A DNA stretch of 64,000 nt from Tubiluchus corallicola. Lineage: Eukaryota; Priapulida; Priapulimorpha; Priapulimorphida; Tubiluchidae. A model generated the notes under the pieces. It was not told where the DNA came from. It ran no database searches and saw nothing but the letters and a program-made list of their open reading frames with translations. The stretch is from NCBI GenBank assembly GCA_030141605.1, contig JAQGDQ010000011.1, positions 62,001 to 126,000 on the forward strand, in the 5' to 3' direction. Position numbers and translations under genes: made by a program. Below are positions 34,801 through 64,000 of this stretch, piece after piece; the stretch's first letter is position 1; each line of letters begins with the position of its first letter.

Positions 34801-37800
34801 TTTTCTAATGTGTAATCGTAAAATGGCAATTCTTTGTACAATGTTTTCAAAATAATATATACAACTACGAAAGAAAAGTGCACTATATTTTGTTAGCTAA
34901 AAAACAAGCAAAATCACTAAATATAACATTTTATATTACACTAAGTGTATTTTTTCTTATCCTGTCTTGGTTTAGCTTTCTTTATATACTTTCATGTTAC
35001 TTTTTCTGGTTCTTGATTTGCAAACGAAGGTAGATAGTGGTTTTGAAATATTTTCTCCATTAATCTATGTATTGACACCCACGAAGCACTGCAGTTAGAT
35101 TTGGACAAATACAATAACTAACAAGATGTTAATAGGATGTGGGTCCTGGGATTAATATATAATCTACATATTGGTACCCACGAAGCACTGCAGTCGGATT
35201 TGGGCAAATACAATAATTAACAAGATGTTCATAGGATGTGGGTCCTGGGATTAATATATAATCTACATATTGGCACCCACGAAGCACTGCAGTCGGATTT
35301 GGACAAATACAATAACTCACAAGATGTTCATAGGATGTGGGTCCTGGGATTAATATATAATCTACATATTGGCACCCACGAAGCACTGCAGTCGGATTTG
35401 GACAAATACAATAACTCACAAGATGTTCATAGGATGTGGGTCCTGGGATTAATATATAATCTACATATTGGCACCCACGAAGCACTGCAGTCGGATTTGG
35501 ACAAATACAATAACTCACAAGATGTTCATAGGATGTGGGTCCTGGGATTAATATATAATCTACATATTGGCACCCACGAAGCACTGCAGTCGGATTTGGA
35601 CAAATACAATAACTAACAAGATGTTCATAGGATGTGGGTCCTGGGATTAATATATAAATCATGCATAATTTTAATTTCAGGAGCCTTGGGCAGTTGGTCC
35701 TCACAGCTTTTCTGTGTTGTGTAATATGACTGTATGTCTTCCTTTACCTGGAGTATTGCTGTTACATATCTGTGCAAGATCTGCGGAGCCACCTGCTCAG
35801 GTTTGTATTCAGAAATCAATGGTACAAGACTACAAGTTTATTCATGAAAAGCGACACTGCATTTGGCTGCAAATGTTTGAAAGTTTTGGACTTGTTGGAG
35901 TGATTATGCCAATTGCAGCTTGAACTTATCTGGTACAGAGAACTACGTTTTTGCCACGCGCAATAGGCCACACTTTTAGTTGTTTCGTGAGTTAGAAGGG
36001 ATTTCAAATTCATAAATTAAATTTCTGGCATAATGTCCTTGTCAGGCATTTCTAGTTTGTGTCATATAATCAAGTGACATTATCAGTAATGGACACCTGT
36101 AACTTGCTGTTACCTAACCTACCTTATGTAAACTATAGTACAACAGTGCCATGTCAAATCAAATAACTAGAAACTCGGCTGCTGACTACATTCCTTAGTT
36201 CTTATCCCCTTTACTCGTCATCAACACTTATTCCCATAAGAATTCAAACATTTTTACCTTTTGCCTTGTGTTGTTAGCATTTGTTTTCGTTTAAACCCTT
36301 TCAGGCAAACCTTTTTACTCATGATTATGGCAGTCTGTAGTCTTTCTCAGTGTTTGACCTGCTTTGTGTATTTTTAAGCTGTTATTGTTATTGCGATGTT
36401 ACGAGTGCATCATGCTTTCACATTTTTGTAATTCTGTGAATGATGGTTTTGAACTGTCATATCCTATATGTCTGCAGGTAACTGATGTGATGATCTATAA
36501 TATCACTAGGAATGAAGTTTTGATCACTTGGAGTGATTCGTACATTCACACAAAGTGAGTGCTTTTCAATTTGTCCTACAAATACTATGTAAGTTTTCCC
36601 AGTTTTGTTGTTTACAAGTCTTTTGATCTGGTTTATTTCACCCAACTTTCTTAAATACTACATACTAGAAGTATTTTCTTAGAGCTAGAAGATTAGAAAG
36701 AACACTGTAGTGCCAATGGTCAGCTTCTCGAAACACAGGCTAACTACAACTCTGTATTGTTATTGAAAATCGGTCCCATCTTAGTTTCTGAAATTTCAAA
36801 TCAAGTTGTCAAACAAAAGCAGTATCTTCTTGAAGTCCCATTGACAGAATGTGTGATGCTTACATTGCACCATACCAAGCTGTTTAAAAAATGACTTCTA
36901 TTTTTCAGATGTATTCTTACTTATGAAGTGGAATTTGCTGCAACGGGGAGCAAGTATGAACGAATTAACATTAGAAATACATTCTTCACTTCATTCCTGT
37001 TCTCGCCTGTATCTACACAAACAGGTACAGATAAGAAATTAATATACGTTTCTGGTGAAATAAACTCACAATAAGAAAAATATTTAAAACGAAATTGCTA
37101 GAGATTCATAACTGATCCCAGATTTGAACTCAAGGATGAGAAGCTGAGATCTTTCGATTACAATTTCTATTTCTGAGGTAGATCTGAGCTGAGACTTTTC
37201 CACCATTTCTTCTTTTTGGCTAAGTTTGATTTTAAATGATTTATTAATTTTGTGTCGTCAGATAGCATGCTAATTCTGTCATTAACTGATAGTCTCAGAA
37301 TTAAGGTCTTTATTAAATAAAGTTTATTATTTATTAAAGTTTTTTATTTAATGAAAGTTGAGTGAAATGTTTTCTTTTAACTGTATGTCTAATCACACAG
37401 TTAATGTAGAATCTTAAAGCAGTAAATTTGTGCTTGTCCGCATTGACTCACTGTGGTGTGACATTGTTTTACGTTTTCTACTGACATGCAGTCCTACAAC
37501 CATATAAATAAGTTCTTTCACCCACATGAATAAAGCTCAGTAACACCCAAAAGTACTTAATTTTCAATAATTATAATATCTTTTCGTGTAATATACATCG
37601 TGAGACTCATGAACGCTACTACTAATTATGTTGTGCTGGGTACTAGTGGCAAAGGAAGCCATTGAAGTCAGGTGATTAACAAACTTGTATGTGAAGTTGT
37701 GGAACGAGTGAGAACTGAAATTTGACGTGTGTGCGAGACAAAGTGTAAAAGATTTAAAATGCATGTGACACGTGCCTAATGCATGAGAGTTGGTAGGTCT

Positions 37801-49643: not shown

Positions 49644-51374
49644 CTTACACCAAGTAAGTTAACAATAAATAATGTGGACTATACAGATACATATGATATT
49701 GCCAGTAAACTAAATGAGTTTTTTGTAAATATAGGCCCTGACATGGCTGCCAAAATACCTAAACCTAACGTTAATTTTACTGACTTTTTGAAAAACCCTA
49801 ACCCAAATTCTTTTTTCATTAATCCTATTACTGAAAATGAAACATGCACACTTTTAAACACACTTAATTCAAACAAATCACCAGGACCACAAAATATACC
49901 AATATCTTTTTTTAAATCTGCAAGTCAAATTATTTCACCAATACTCACATTACTGTTTAATAAATCGGTTAATGCTGGAACTTTTCCAAATATATTAAAA
50001 ATAGCAAAAGTTATTCCTTTATATAAAACTGGCTCTCCACATGAACCTGGCAATTACAGACCAATATCTCTCTTATCACCAGTATCAAAAGTTTTTGAGA
50101 GGCTAATTTACAAGAGATTATACCAGTTTGTTGTGAAAAGTAATATCCTAAGTAAATACCAGTTTGGTTTCAGAAAAAATTATTCAACTGCCCTTGCTGT
50201 ATCCGAATTAATTGACACGATCTCTCTAGACACTGACAAAAAATTACTGAATTGCGGAATATTTTTAGACTTATCAAAAGCTTTTGATACCGTACAGCAT
50301 AGTATACTAATAGCCAAATTAAACCATTATGGCATCAGAGGTCTACCTTTGCAACTAATTCAGTCATATCTAACTAACAGAAAACAATTCATATCTATTA
50401 ACAATGTATCATCAGACTATAAACACATATCGTGTGGAGTGCCACAAGGCTCTAATTTAGGACCTCTTCTATTCTTAATTTATATTAACGATCTTCCCAC
50501 ATGCAGCAACTTTCGAACCCGAATATTTGCCGATGACACTAATTTGTTCATGTCTGACTCCAATATAAATAATTTGCAAAAATCTGTTAATGACGAAATG
50601 AAAAAAATAGACCTGTGGATGAGGGCAAACCAGCTATCAATTAACTACAAAAAAACCAAATTTATGATAATCAACAATAAGCAAATTAACAATGCTAATA
50701 ATCCAAAATTTCATATTATAATAAACAAACACAAAATTGAAGAAACAGACAACATCAAATACTTGGGCCTACTCATTGATAATAAATTAACATGGGAACC
50801 ACATATAAAACACATAACAAACAAGTTAAGTCGAATTACTGGAATAATTTTAAAAGTAAGGCACTACGTTGACCAATATATTCTGAAACTTCTATATAAT
50901 TCGTTAGTTTTCCCTTATTTACAATATTCCATCTTAACATGGGGTACGGCTTTTGCATCAATTCAAAAATTAATACAGACACAACAAAACAAAATAGTAA
51001 AACTAATAACTTTTGCTCGCAAATATGATCATGCTACACCATCGTTCGTAAAATTAGAAATTTTAAAAGTAAGAGATATTTACAATCTTGAGTTGTTCAA
51101 ATTTATGTATAAATTCAATGCTGGTTTATTACCCGAACTTTTTAGTGAATATTTCACTAATGTTTCTGATATACATTCCTACTCCACAAGAGCTGCTTCT
51201 AATGAACAGTATTTTGTGGAGAGATTTTTTACCCGACATGGTTTCAATAGCTTAAAATCACGAGGAGTTAAATTATGGAACTCGTTGCCAAAAGATACCT
51301 TTGGAGGTAGCTTATTTTCTGCTTCCAAAAAATACAGAAAATTCTTACTAAATGAATATACCTGTAATACATAA
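49644..51374 (+). CDS. LINE (CR1/L2/Jockey-like) reverse transcriptase ORF, 5'-truncated but open
   Basis: Non-LTR retrotransposon ORF2 lacking its endonuclease. The frame is open from 49644 (TAA at 49641); there is no ATG at its head, as expected of a 5'-truncated insertion. RT motifs in order: SNKSPGPQNIP, NYRPISLLSPVSKVFERLIY, KYQFGFRKNYST, GIFLDLSKAFDTVQHS (motif A), SCGVPQGSNLGPLLFLIYIN (motif B), RIFADDTNLFMS (catalytic FADD), INYKKTKFMI, IKYLGLLID, and a C-terminal GVKLWNSLPKD. No internal stop or frameshift in about 577 codons suggests a young insertion. Its A-rich codon use differs from the host genes. It cannot move by itself without endonuclease. Confidence 0.93.
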   Translation, partial: LTPSKLTINNVDYTDTYDIASKLNEFFVNIGPDMAAKIPKPNVNFTDFLKNPNPNSFFINPITENETCTLLNTLNSNKSPGPQNIPISFFKSASQIISPILTLLFNKSVNAGTFPNILKIAKVIPLYKTGSPHEPGNYRPISLLSPVSKVFERLIYKRLYQFVVKSNILSKYQFGFRKNYSTALAVSELIDTISLDTDKKLLNCGIFLDLSKAFDTVQHSILIAKLNHYGIRGLPLQLIQSYLTNRKQFISINNVSSDYKHISCGVPQGSNLGPLLFLIYINDLPTCSNFRTRIFADDTNLFMSDSNINNLQKSVNDEMKKIDLWMRANQLSINYKKTKFMIINNKQINNANNPKFHIIINKHKIEETDNIKYLGLLIDNKLTWEPHIKHITNKLSRITGIILKVRHYVDQYILKLLYNSLVFPYLQYSILTWGTAFASIQKLIQTQQNKIVKLITFARKYDHATPSFVKLEILKVRDIYNLELFKFMYKFNAGLLPELFSEYFTNVSDIHSYSTRAASNEQYFVERFFTRHGFNSLKSRGVKLWNSLPKDTFGGSLFSASKKYRKFLLNEYTCNT

Positions 51375-57305: not shown

Positions 57306-59231
57306 CTATACTGAGCTGGAAGATGGAGGAAGGAGCTTTGGCGGAGGCATAACTGTTGCATCACCACTAGCAGTATGCACGTTCTGCTTATTCACATGTG
57401 CAGCAGCTGCATGATTAGAAATGGGTAGAGGGTGCGGGTGGTCACTTTTGTGCTGTGGCTGTGTCGCATCTGCAGGTAATCCTGGACGCCAGCGCCGGTG
57501 TTCAATGAAACTTAAAAGCATATCTTTAGTCACCGGATGCTTGATGCTCTCACAAACCGCCAAAGCTGTGTTGTAACTATTTGGAAACGATTTGTCAGTT
57601 CGCTGGCGCATGAACCGCCACTCATTATCCTGGAACTTACATTCGATTATTTTATTATCAAGTTCCTTCAGTTCCTTTGAGAGTTTTGATATTTTTGCAA
57701 AGGGGGTATTCAAGGAGCCGACCATGAGAAACCCGACTTTAGTCGGAAGCATTCCTTCGCCAGAAATTTGGCCAATTTTCAATCGAAAATCAACCGAATT
57801 CAGGCCACTTGGTTTCCATTTCAGTATGTCATTGTTCTGCCCAGGATTATACAAGTCTTCTCGACCACATGGTTGAAATATCAGTCCGTCTATTTCATGA
57901 GATACTTGCGTAGTAAACTTAGAATCAAGTAACTTTGCAGATTCTGCAACATCCCAGAATGGTTTGGCCCGGACACTAAATGACTCTTTTGATCGGTCAA
58001 TTTTGCCCTGTTGAAGAAGGGTGTGTCTAGGGTCAATGATCTCCCGCCCGATACAGTAAAGACGCCGTTCAAAGTCACACTTCCCAACTTCTTGGTTCTC
58101 AAAGCGAATAATATCGTACACTAAATACCTTGGTACGTTATGTTTGTCCACCCTATCTATAATCATCTCACCATCGAGCAGAGTTTCGCTAATAAAGTGA
58201 TCGAGTTGCTTTCGTCGAGGAAAAATCAACAAGTTCACTTTAAAAACACAGTTATCCCTGTCAATCATGTAAATATTATCTTTTCCATTGAGCAACATCA
58301 AGTATCTCGTTCCATCTGCCTTCCAGCTCACTTTGTATGGCTTTTTATTCAAATATGAAATGTTTTTCACATCCATGGACACTGGTTGAGCTCCGGGAAA
58401 ACCAGAACGCTCCCAACCACACATAGATTGCACCTTCTTCTGGATTTGGGAAAGAAGGGGCTGTTGGACAACTGGAGTCACACCAGAAACCCCTTCCATG
58501 AATGACGGAGCTTTCTTAGTGAACTCGCAACTTTTAGATCGCTTTCGAGGCCCGTCACGGTCATTCTCATCGGTACTTCCGGAACTAGAATCAGCTACGG
58601 GTTCGCCATCATCATCAACGTCACCGTCATCGCTCTCAAGGTGCCATTCAGGAAGAGCTGGCGGAGGTGGAGCATCATCTCTTTCGCCATATCGAGCAAA
58701 TATCTCTTCCAAATAGTCGCCTTTGATAATACCAGGCGGACGAGCTTCAGCAAATGCGGCAACGGCAGCTTCGGTGCTCCAACCGATCTGGTCTACCAAG
58801 TACGAACAAATGAGAAATCCGGTTCTGTTAAAACCGTGAGTGCAGTGAATGGCTATGATCTCTTCAGGATGTTGAGAAATAAATTTTGCACACTGCTGTA
58901 TAAAGAAGAGCATCTGCTCCTCGGCTGGAGTTTGACCGTGTCCGCGACAATGAATCTTTAAATACCTCGCACCGTGCCGTTCAACTTCAGATCTGTTGTA
59001 AAACCGCGACGTGTTTGTCAGATCTATCCACAATCCGACTTTGACCTTATAGCTCTGCAGTGAACTAAATAGCATGGAAACATCAAATCTGAACTCTTCA
59101 GCAACCTGAGAGTCATACCGGGAATCTAGTGGCGTTTTAAAGGGCAAAAACTTGCCTGCAACAACTGTCCCTTTCCTCGGACAGCGGAGCCACCTGGGTG
59201 GTATTAGCTGGGCTCTGTCTCTATTGGCCAT
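57306..59231 (-). CDS. RNGTT: mRNA capping enzyme (RNA 5'-triphosphatase/guanylyltransferase), intronless
   Basis: Bifunctional nuclear enzyme that removes the gamma-phosphate from nascent pre-mRNA and adds GMP. One 641-codon exon. The N-terminal triphosphatase is a cysteine-phosphatase fold with [10 protein letters not shown] (Cys130). A Ser/Asp-rich linker covers roughly residues 185-245. The guanylyltransferase has KADGTRY with the nucleotidyl-accepting Lys304, DGEMIIDR (353-360), DGLIFQP (448-454) and LKWKP (470-474). The OB-fold end contains [16 protein letters not shown]. The tail ends in [14 protein letters not shown]. Length and order match the animal family (human about 597 residues) along the whole protein. 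The ATG at 59231 lies in GTCATGG context, and the next residues ([11 protein letters not shown]) match the family N-terminus. All catalytic residues are intact. The lack of introns contrasts with the neighbours. Confidence 0.97.
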
Positions 59232-60760
59232 GACGTACTGTTATTCCACAGCTAACTGAGATTAGCAGTTATACAGTAATGTAAACATCCGACCAGGAAC
59301 ACATACTTAAACCATAACCACATTCCTCCCACGGAGGTCATCAGCATTGCAAGTAGTTAACCATTGTCGAACCTGCTCCCCACCATTGCTTGCAAAGTCA
59401 TCGTGGACGTTGCTGGAAAAATGATAAAAACCTATAAAATGTGCTTGAGAAAAAATCTTTAGATACCTTCAGTAGCAAAGAACAAATTTTCCATATTTAC
59501 TAAAAATTTAATACAAACTCTAATTTAAATAAGAAACTATTTTAAAAACAAAAAAAATGTAAAAAAGGTAGAGTAATATATTGACTAATTTGAGTAATAT
59601 AGACAATTGAGTAATATATGAAGAAATATATTTATTTTTAACGAACAGCATGTGCTACAACACAGGTAATGTACAGTTGAAAGAATGTCAAATATCAGTA
59701 ACATATCACTGATTTTTTATATTCTTTCACATATAACCAAGAATATGTATAATGCACGTACAAACTAATCTGCTAAAAAATCCTAATAGGCTAATGATAA
59801 TTATTTATGCGTTCCATTTAAAATTAAATTGCTTAAATGTCCAGCCATATTAGACATACTGTAGCCGGTTATGCTAAAATAAAGCCCTTATGCCAAGGCC
59901 TAAGTTCTTCAATAGTACCATGTATCAGGGTGTGCTTAGAGAACAATTACCCAAAGAAATCAGCTCACAAACTGGAAAGGCATCAAGCACCTTCTTAATG
60001 TTAATGATCTATGTTCACCATAATGGAATTAACAATCAACTTGGAGGGTAATTTAATATTTTAAGTTTGTAAAATTTCATGTTTCAAGGTTGGCACGGAA
60101 ATTTCTATTAATTTTAGGCTAGGGTTTTCAATGTGATGACAATAACACATATAAAATTTTAAAGTACTCAAATTCTGGCAAATTTTGTTTAGTAATTATC
60201 ATGTAAACATCACCGTACAAAAGCGCTAGTCAACCTAAAAATGATGGACACTAGAAACGACATCATTAGATTACGAACGTAAAATATGAAATTAAAATTT
60301 TAAAAATGGCAAACTTGGTAATTTAGCAAAAATACATAATTGTAGCTAAACAGCCTACAAGTCTCTGAGAGACTATTTACTTTAAGCGGGCAATGTAGGC
60401 CTAAGAGGTCATAAGTAAAGCACAACTAGCTCGGGCAGGTAAACCAGTACGGTAACTGTACAAAAAAGGCACAGTAACACATACCAAATAATTTTTAATG
60501 TATTGATTACACATTTTAATTTTGTGTATAAAATCAAATCAGGAGGAAGATATAGTTTCAAAAGAAGTACGTAATTGGTATTAAAATTAAAACACAACAA
60601 AACGTTTTATAGTAAGTTCATAAATCCAAAACATAATAAAAAATTTTTTGTGGATATGCAGACAATCACTGCTTACGGACCCCGAAAAGTCGCAGACCAG
60701 TCTATTTCTCAAATGTTTGCAGATAACTCACCTTCGTGGTGAGTAGCGGAATCCGACTTT
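59232..60760 (-). other. Possible spliced 5' UTR of the capping enzyme
   Basis: On the minus strand, a good acceptor (TTTTTATCATTTTTCCAG, intron end at 59413) lies 181 bp before the ATG, and a good donor (CGAAG followed by GTGAGTTATC, near 60731) lies about 1.3 kb further up. Together they suggest a non-coding first exon near 60732 and above. This is inferred from splice-site words only. Confidence 0.35.
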
Positions 60761-61900
60761 AAAGGTAGAATATTATTTTCAGCTTGTTTGAGTTTTTCCA
60801 ATACGCAAGCCCAAAACATGCGTAACTGGTTACACAGCTTCCAGCTTCACGTGCAAAAATCGCTCACAATCCCTACGTACCCCAATTGTTGAGATAAATT
60901 AACCTGTTTTAAAAGTATTACTTTTTTCCAGTGGATCCCGCGACGTTACGGACCAAGTTATTGTATTCAGTCTCCCGATTTTGCAGAGCCGCAGAATCAC
61001 TCTGTACGGACATTGCGGTTCTGCAGCGCAAAATAAGTGGGTTCGCGAATTTCTGATCTAGTGTAGTAGTAAATTTGAAATGTAGTATCTAAATTTGACC
61101 CAGAGTTAAGGGAATTTAAGTCTACGTTATGTCTATCACGTAACAACACTTTGCAGATTCGATAAAAAAGCATATAACTATTGCTAAATTGCAAAATAAA
61201 AATAGATTAATTCTAGGATTTTAAATTTTCGTGAAGCAAGTCAACCATTTTGAAACACCGACTGTTCACTTGTTGCTAGTCGCTACTTCACTAAGTTCAC
61301 TTGAAACACTGCGCATGCGTTATGAATCACATTCCACAGGATTATTTGCTTCGTTCAGTCTGTTATGCACTTTGCAGTTTACGGAATTGTCGAATTTTAT
61401 TTTTTGGGTTACTCGCTTGCGAGTTGCAATATAACCTTATAAAATTAATATATCTATTTCGCCGTAAAACTGGCCCCAAACTGGTTTACTCACCACAAAG
61501 ATGAGTTCTCTTCAAAATAAATATAATATAATAATCAGCATATTTTACTTCAGCAATACATATACATCAACATATAAGATACATAAAAAGAAAAGGAAAA
61601 AAAATCATAGGTGACATCATATTAACCAAATAAATGAATTGCTGTATGACAACTTGATAGCGGTGCTTGTTAAGGCGAACTGAAACCACTTTTGCAATAA
61701 CTGATACGCAGTTAGCAAGTCTGAAGAAATTACTGAATCTGTAAGACTTAGGTTCTTTGTTGTAGTAGTAATAGTAAAATTTTACTCTTTGTCGATATAT
61801 TTCAAAAGATAACATTAGCCAATGGCTATTTTATGTAAGAACAAATAAAAAAATGAAACGAAATAAAAAAATTATAATGCACACAATGTACGAGCATAGA
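60760..61900. other. Spacer, no recognised gene
   Basis: Contains an imperfect inverted pair GCAGAGCCGCAGAATC / GCGGTTCTGCAGCG near 60985-61027 and otherwise AT-rich sequence. Could include the capping enzyme promoter. Confidence 0.35.
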
Positions 61901-61910
61901 ACGACATTGA

Positions 61911-62965
61911 CATTGGTACAAGTAAGTTTGGTACAGGTAATGTTGGTACGAGGAAATTTTGGTGCTAATAATTTTTGGTATAAGGGTTATTTTGGTACAA
62001 GTAAATTTGATAGTATAGTCTTAAGATACAAAGAATTTTTGGTAGTAAGAAAATTTGTTACAGGGAATGTTTGGTACGAAGAAAATATGGTACCAGGATT
62101 GTTTAGTACTAAGAAATGTTGGTACAGGGAAGTTTTGGTACTAGGAAAATATATGATACGAGAAAAATTTGGTAGCAGGAAAGTTTGATGCTGGAAAAAT
62201 TAGTACTTAACGAAAAAAAAAGAACAGTTCTATATCTCAGTATAAAATAATTGTTTCGGTAGAAAATAAAGAAGTCTATTCATTACACAAAGTTCATAAA
62301 ACATTATACTGTAATCAATAATGCCTGGCAGCTAAAATTTTATCTGTGTTTATGTAGGTACATTTGACAATTCTTTAAGCAAAAAATGAAAGGTCTCCAG
62401 CTCACCATGCAACTCATTTTTGCCATAATCATCACTGTTATTATGCATTGTTATCATTATTATTATCGTCACTAGCGTCAACGTTGCCATCATCAATATT
62501 ATTGCCATCACTTACTGTAATCATCCATCATTATTTATTGGCAACAAGACGACAAAAGTAACAATGGTGACATGACAACAGCAAAATTATGATGATGACG
62601 GTGGGTGGGTGTTGTTGTTGGTGCTGGTAGTAGTAGTAAACAGGAGAGAGAGCAAGAAACAGACAAACAAAAACAACAATGACAAATAACAAAGAGGAAG
62701 CAAACAAAAAACAAATAAAGAAATGCAACAACATGAGCCGCTAGAACTTGGTACAGTAGGTTATATAAAATATATTCTCATTGTATCAAACTTTCTCTGT
62801 ACCGAATTTTCCTAGTACCAAACCTTCCGAGTACTAAACTTTCCTAGTATCAAACTTGCTACATACCATTTTTACCTGTATCATATTTACTTGTACCAAA
62901 ATGCCTGACAAAACTTCTTTGTACCAAAAATTCCTAGTGCCAAATTTTTGCTCGATACCAAAAAC
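61911..62965. mobile_element. Foldback-like structure: two opposed arrays of a ~16-bp degenerate unit
   Basis: Left arm (61911-62207): about 19-20 units of the type TTTGGTACNAGGAAA, phase points 15-18 bp apart and mostly 16. Right arm (about 62780-62965): about 12 units of the reverse complement (TTTCCTAGTACCAAA), again mostly 16 bp apart. The centre, about 570 bp, holds degenerate ATC and GTT/GTA trinucleotide repeats and a purine-rich stretch. The arms could pair into a long imperfect hairpin. No transposase or target-site duplication is seen; foldback-type transposon is one reading, paired satellite expansion another. Confidence 0.75.
62420..62535. repeat. Degenerate ATC/ATT trinucleotide repeat
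   Basis: Similar in kind to 25806-25975; lies in the centre of the foldback-like structure. Confidence 0.7.
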
Positions 62966-64000
62966 ACGATATATAGGCTGGTATACAAAATCTTGCTATG
63001 GGATATAGAAACAACGAGTAACAGAACTGTGAATCTAACCAGTCTATTATACCATCACAATTTAATCGGAATTCCCCAGTGTCTCGTCACAATCTGCTAT
63101 CCTGAGGGGTATAATTGGTTCAGTGACTCGAATAACTCATCTTGCAGATGTCTCATAAGCTTCTCTGTTGAATACTTATCAAGTGCGTGTTTTTATCATC
63201 TTGGCGTCCGCTTTAGGATTACTTCAGCGTGTTGGGTTGGGTGGGTCGGTGAATTTCCAATCCATTCAGTTTAATCGAAAAATTAACCCAGGAATTTCAG
63301 GTTAGTGCTTCTGTCACATCCTCAAGACGTGCCAGACTTCCACACCATTTTAAAGACATTATAGATCCCGCTATTGTTTAAGCAATACTTTTGTGAAATA
63401 ACTTCTTGCCTGCTACTCGTTGTTTTTGTACCTCCTAGCAAAAGGTCATGTACCACCCTGTATTTTAAATAGAGCATAAAGCAAAATAACAAGAACTTTT
63501 TATAATGCATTATGGAGAAAGTACATATGACAGGGACTTTACCGGGTTATATCCCTATTCTAATAAACTAGTATAGTAATAATTTTTTTAACATTATGCA
63601 AATGTCTATTGTTGTTCCGGTTGTCTTTAGCATGTTGTGGGTGGTGTTGTGTTTTGCTATGTGGGTCGTGTGTGGTAGTTTTTAATATTGTGACGTCACA
63701 ATTTAGTACTATTGCAGAAAAATTGTTGGATGACTGAACCGACCGAAGGCCATCAAACCAAAAGCATGTTATCAAAGTTTGCACATTTTACAAATACGTG
63801 CAAGCAAAACCAGCGTGTGTGCATGCACCTGTGCTAGCAAGTGAGTGGCCCAATGATTCGTTCCAGACTAGTTTAGTGTGTGTTTTGAGCCCAAATAATT
63901 GTTTGACAATGATTTTAGTTCATCGTTATGCTTACGATGGTTGTAATAATTTTGCTGCAATAGTGTCATGTTATACTTATCTTATCAGAACAAAATTTTA
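62966..64000. other. Right-end spacer, no recognised gene
   Basis: AT-rich. Contains a palindrome ATTGTGACGTCACAAT around 63689-63704 with a perfect TGACGTCA core, a CREB/ATF-type site by sequence, but no adjacent gene to which it can be tied. Confidence 0.4.

Follow-up and report, generated by a model that had tools for sequence, protein, structure and literature searches.

Foldback transposons are a known kind of mobile element. TU elements (sea urchin Strongylocentrotus purpuratus) have long inverted repeats with an outer domain of 15-bp tandem units, variable centres and 8-bp duplications. Tm1 refers to a Mutator/Phantom foldback family of root-knot nematodes, one copy of which encodes a Phantom-type MULE transposase; its 7-bp tips (CGGTTAA/CCTACCC) are followed by GGA and then by an array of ~14-bp units, and its duplications are of 8-10 bp (PMC3169594). 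Tetris (Drosophila virilis) is a non-autonomous foldback element with tandem-repeat arms, 8-9 bp duplications and no known autonomous partner (PMC4079207). Galileo (Drosophila) has long, internally repetitive arms and a P-superfamily transposase (PMC3688188). Rehavkus is related to Mutator and has 9-bp duplications, inverted repeats of 26-400 bp and a minisatellite near one of its ends, which is reported only ahead of the 3′ inverted repeat (PMC6446971).

The window (the whole stretch of DNA that was analysed, 64,000 nucleotides from Tubiluchus corallicola) contains an arrayed inverted repeat that is very probably a copy of a non-autonomous, cut-and-paste DNA transposon of foldback type. Its parts are the following.

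61900..61912, + strand: site of the left terminal motif (family motif: GAATGTAGGAAAG); 5 of 13 letters are alike against the consensus, and the motif is unrecognisable.
61913..62215, + strand: left arm, ~19 units of TTTGGTACNAGGAAA(N) in the order of the family, one ancestral unit being deleted.
62216..62776, + strand: non-coding centre, common to other copies of the family.
62777..62965, − strand: right arm, ~11 reverse-complement units.

The initial annotation described about 20 GGTAC-centred units running rightward, about 12 reverse-complement units and a centre of ~570 bp. Both arrays are present, with counts corrected to ~19 (one ancestral unit lost) and ~11 (the ancestral arm has 20), and the centre was found at ~560 bp, non-coding. 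In the left block, Tandem Repeats Finder gave arrays of period 16 and 32 (61913-62148 and 62033-62150); in the right block, it gave arrays at 62783-62857, 62867-62895 and 62909-62944. Inverted-repeat detection paired segments of the left and right blocks about 20 times (best: 24 nt, 96%). The arm-to-arm local alignment score is 90; 1000 shuffles gave a mean of 21.3 (sd 2.8, maximum 33). The RNA fold of the joined arms is of -178.7 kcal/mol, against -96.2 +/- 5.8 for shuffles. Rfam families and tRNAs were searched across the window and none was found.

The copy tracks the family consensus from unit 1 (61913), via the centre, into the right arm. In the consensus alignment, the outer units of the right arm and the right terminal motif (family motif, reverse complement: GGTGCGCGGTAAG) are unrecognisable, and the centre lacks a microsatellite-rich stretch (roughly consensus positions 710-880) and two shorter stretches. 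Neither tip can be recognised in this alignment and no target-site duplication of the copy's own was seen; since the left tip is unrecognisable, none is readable there. The copy is thus a dead, damaged foldback member, assigned to its family by descent.

An old dispersed repeat with ~54-nt inverted ends (62971-63463; 56 genome-wide matches) adjoins the copy directly on its right. This repeat may be a TA-flanked miniature transposon. Three other features of the window were recorded. A full-length mRNA capping enzyme is encoded at 57306-59240 (− strand) by one unbroken, intronless 644-codon frame, which may be a retrocopy or a gene that naturally has no introns. At 49644-51374 (+ strand) lies a reverse-transcriptase frame of non-LTR type, unbroken over 576 codons. 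Six copies of a 99-bp tandem repeat (97%), with an open frame on both strands, lie at 35061-35657.

The element served as query against the genome from which the window comes (343.5 Mb in 2344 contigs). At least 217 matches were obtained from the 40 candidates that were scored out of 341, and about three dozen places show both arms and the centre in one and the same order; copy counts of the family are lower bounds. Copies (38, then 16 more) were excised and lined up, which exposed fixed ends, GAATGTAGGAAAG on the left and, as reverse complement, GGTGCGCGGTAAG on the right, each leading directly into the first unit. Genome-wide, the 21-bp end patterns were found 173 times (left) and 157 times (right) with up to 3 mismatches; the backward-pattern controls gave 4 and 0. 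One insertion with the same flanks is found on three contigs (C2264 with L019, C2138 with L020, and C1787; L019 and L020 are 100% identical), so that parts of the assembly either are duplicated or contain both haplotypes.

The family consensus is of 1453 bp, with 20 units per arm. The 7-bp tips are unlike at the two ends (GAATGTA, GGTGCGC); they are followed by GG[A/T]AAG and then by the arms, each with ~20 units of 15-16 bp and inverted relative to each other. A phase near 16 bp had been reported for the window copy; it holds for most of the inner units, and the outermost ones are spaced by 15 bp, as in the consensus (15 bp at the tips, then 16 bp for most inner units). Over their outer ~115 bp, the consensus arms match unit by unit and form a true inverted repeat; the inner arms have the unit type in common but not the unit order. 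The centre contains many GAT and CAA microsatellites. No recognisable coding capacity was found in the consensus or in the longest copies, which hold only low-complexity frames and arm repeats. The copies are 10-25% diverged from the consensus; the family is therefore old and its present activity unlikely.

The family has transposed. Target-site duplications were found in 19 of the 37 copies with both ends placed (8 bp: 7 copies; 9 bp: 12 copies), a duplication being called when at least 7/8 bases or, in other copies, at least 7/9 bases agreed. Permutation of partners (5000 trials) gave 0.13 copies on average and 3 at most. Some duplications are perfect (8 bp: TCTGGGCT, CTTTTGAC, ATTACGAC; 9 bp: CAAAAAATA, GGCTATAAC). 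An empty site was found for one insertion (L044, on C1461): a diverged paralogous repeat (L079, on C1789) spans the junction (87% identity) and has the target 8-mer only once. The foldback-like nature proposed by the initial annotation is thus borne out by an arm/centre/arm order shared by dozens of loci, by 8-9 bp duplications and by this empty site. The further copies that it had suggested to look for exist, and the duplications expected at the edges are those of the family, the window copy having none that is readable. Each of the two outcomes that it had named as fatal (no second copy in the genome, arm similarity no better than in shuffled sequence) is contradicted. As in foldback elements, a variable centre is flanked by long inverted arms that consist of short direct repeats, and the family has the dispersed copies, fixed ends and target-site duplications in the 8-10 bp range of such elements. 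The window copy itself departs from this: its tips are unrecognisable, its outer right arm is lost and it keeps no duplication.

Two further readings of the element were considered and refuted. According to the first, the arrays are a local minisatellite and its chance inversion. Units of such size can grow by slippage and some copies of the family hold long recent arrays, but unlinked loci share one centre and one order of units, and the copies have fixed ends and target-site duplications. Such dispersal, together with the duplications, leaves a plain minisatellite origin practically no chance. Helitrons are not known to duplicate their target site. A tandem-repeat-bearing derivative of a Helitron or Helentron, as in oysters, is an equally negligible candidate: short tandem arrays are reported from non-autonomous Helentrons of molluscs and flies (PMC7492417), but the family has inverted arms and clear 8-9 bp duplications, and the latter refute this origin.

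The closest described family is Tm1. Both have unlike 7-bp tips outside the inverted repeat, a GGA spacer, arrays of short units, unequal unit numbers per arm, duplications (8-10 bp in Tm1) and mostly non-autonomous, decayed copies. The asymmetric tips lead into the spacer as GAATGTA-GGA and GGTGCGC-GGT, a correspondence of layout only. By inspection, the tips and the unit of Tm1 (CGATTCAGTATCCGC) are unrelated in sequence to those of the present family. The units of Tm1 are of 13-15 bp, mostly 14, with 1-9 per arm, whereas those of the present family are of 15-16 bp, with ~20 per arm. The present family showed no counterpart of the GA-rich inner motif of Tm1, and a Phantom-type transposase is encoded by a Tm1 copy, whereas none was found here. 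Because the sequences differ, the family is Tm1-like and is not Tm1. TU elements, with their 15-bp units, are a further close parallel in layout. Tetris resembles the family in its non-autonomous foldback structure, tandem-repeat arms, 8-9 bp duplications and lack of a known autonomous partner, but its arm repeat is of ~220 bp (PMC4079207), against 15-16 bp here. Galileo has similarly repetitive long arms, but these arms and their repeats are longer (PMC3688188). Rehavkus is comparable in its duplications and its terminal minisatellite, but both arms of the present family are arrays. The unit sequences of the family were not found in the literature searched. The family is a new foldback family.

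The units were then compared by position. Of 638 unit instances in the copies, 553 fit their own consensus position at least as well as any other; the order was therefore fixed before the copies spread. Since the order was inherited from the progenitor, the phase of the window copy reflects descent. The regular phase had been tentatively ascribed to constraint or new amplification; neither new amplification nor present constraint holds for this copy, and fresh amplification in the window copy is ruled out by the positional match of its units to the consensus. GTAC is present in 39 of the 40 contiguous consensus units (left: 20/20; right: 19/20), and the base that follows it is nearly random across units (0.23 bits). 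The conservation value of GTAC in the unit profile is partly set by the procedure of unit picking, so retention of the core is argued from the unbroken 15-16 bp spacing, in which only one unit without GTAC is skipped. In scattered copies, losses of the GTAC letters amount to 7.5-13%, a rate not below that of other positions. This is most simply read as selection on the core during the active life of the element, as expected of a binding site, followed by decay in dead copies.

The GGTAC units are putative binding sites for a transposase, a role that is somewhat favoured by analogy with Galileo, whose arm repeats were found by experiment to hold extra transposase-binding sites (PMC3688188). It is far less probable that the arms serve mainly as a transcribed hairpin feeding small-RNA silencing, for which the spacing of units would be kept. 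The joined consensus arms do fold at -361 (shuffles: -136 +/- 8), but any inverted repeat yields a stable hairpin. Moreover, the GTAC core alone is kept unit by unit, not the pairing of the arms, and the units further in do not match between the arms.

Transposase-domain matches in the genome are of MULE type (7), Merlin type (7), hAT type (115) and P-like type (26). No transposase was found inside any copy, nor near the located MULE, Merlin, hAT and P-like domains. No arms or tips lie within 1.5 kb on either side of the 7 MULE domain matches; the Merlin loci were likewise scanned for both features, and the positions of the hAT and P-like domains were checked by eye against the listed ends; none of the domains is inside an element. 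On one contig (C1451), a left end (467406) and a right end (476192) face each other 8.8 kb apart (467406-476212). This span could be a long copy, possibly autonomous.

The likeliest superfamily is Mutator (Phantom-like), a guess that is assigned by layout only because no transposase was found, and that has a better than even chance. The duplications (8 bp in 7 copies, 9 bp in 12) fall in the 8-11 bp range of Mutator/Phantom (MULE) elements, but this is not decisive for Mutator since such duplications are common to other superfamilies. hAT and P elements normally give a fixed 8-bp duplication. A foldback-type transposon moved by another superfamily with 8-9 bp duplications (Merlin, hAT or P-like) is possible, with roughly one chance in three. 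Domains of these three types are present in the genome, and more than one superfamily has given rise to foldback elements, Galileo being P-like (PMC3688188). However, no Merlin, hAT or P-like domain is inside an element or near its listed ends, 9-bp duplications are commoner here than the 8-bp ones usual for hAT/P, and asymmetric 7-bp tips are known from Mutator-like elements (PMC3169594). It is improbable that the family belongs to an undescribed transposase lineage, with long-array elements, asymmetric tips, a transposase reading GGTAC at 15-16 bp spacing and arms that also seed new satellites. For such a lineage, the spacing corresponds to ~1.5 helical turns, so neighbouring sites would face opposite sides of the helix.

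The following mechanism is proposed. A transposase from an autonomous element (partner not found) would have bound to the GGTAC-centred units of the left and right arms, brought the ends together and cut at the asymmetric tips, and the element would have inserted with a stagger of 8-9 bp. The many sites per arm would give specificity and avidity. Copies would then drift as dead sequence, and the arm units of a few would expand into satellite-like arrays. Expanded arms are found in a few copies. One arm has grown to 55 copies of a 30-bp dimer (L041, on C823, 2185-3833; 93%) and another to 13 copies of a 64-bp four-unit block (L065, on C1861, 696-1533; 92%); unit counts indicate fresh arm amplification in L021 and L063 too. 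The 55 x 30-bp and 13 x 64-bp arrays of single copies show satellite growth out of transposon arms. The arms of Tetris were also found to have seeded satellite arrays in Drosophila virilis (PMC4079207).

The class of foldback elements has few fully described cases, and gains here a well-delimited family whose ends, duplications and empty site are proven. A core kept in the ancestor and lost in dead copies is indirect evidence that the arm repeats of foldback elements are protein-binding sites. The match of layout with Tm1 suggests a wider distribution of asymmetric-tip foldback elements among animals.
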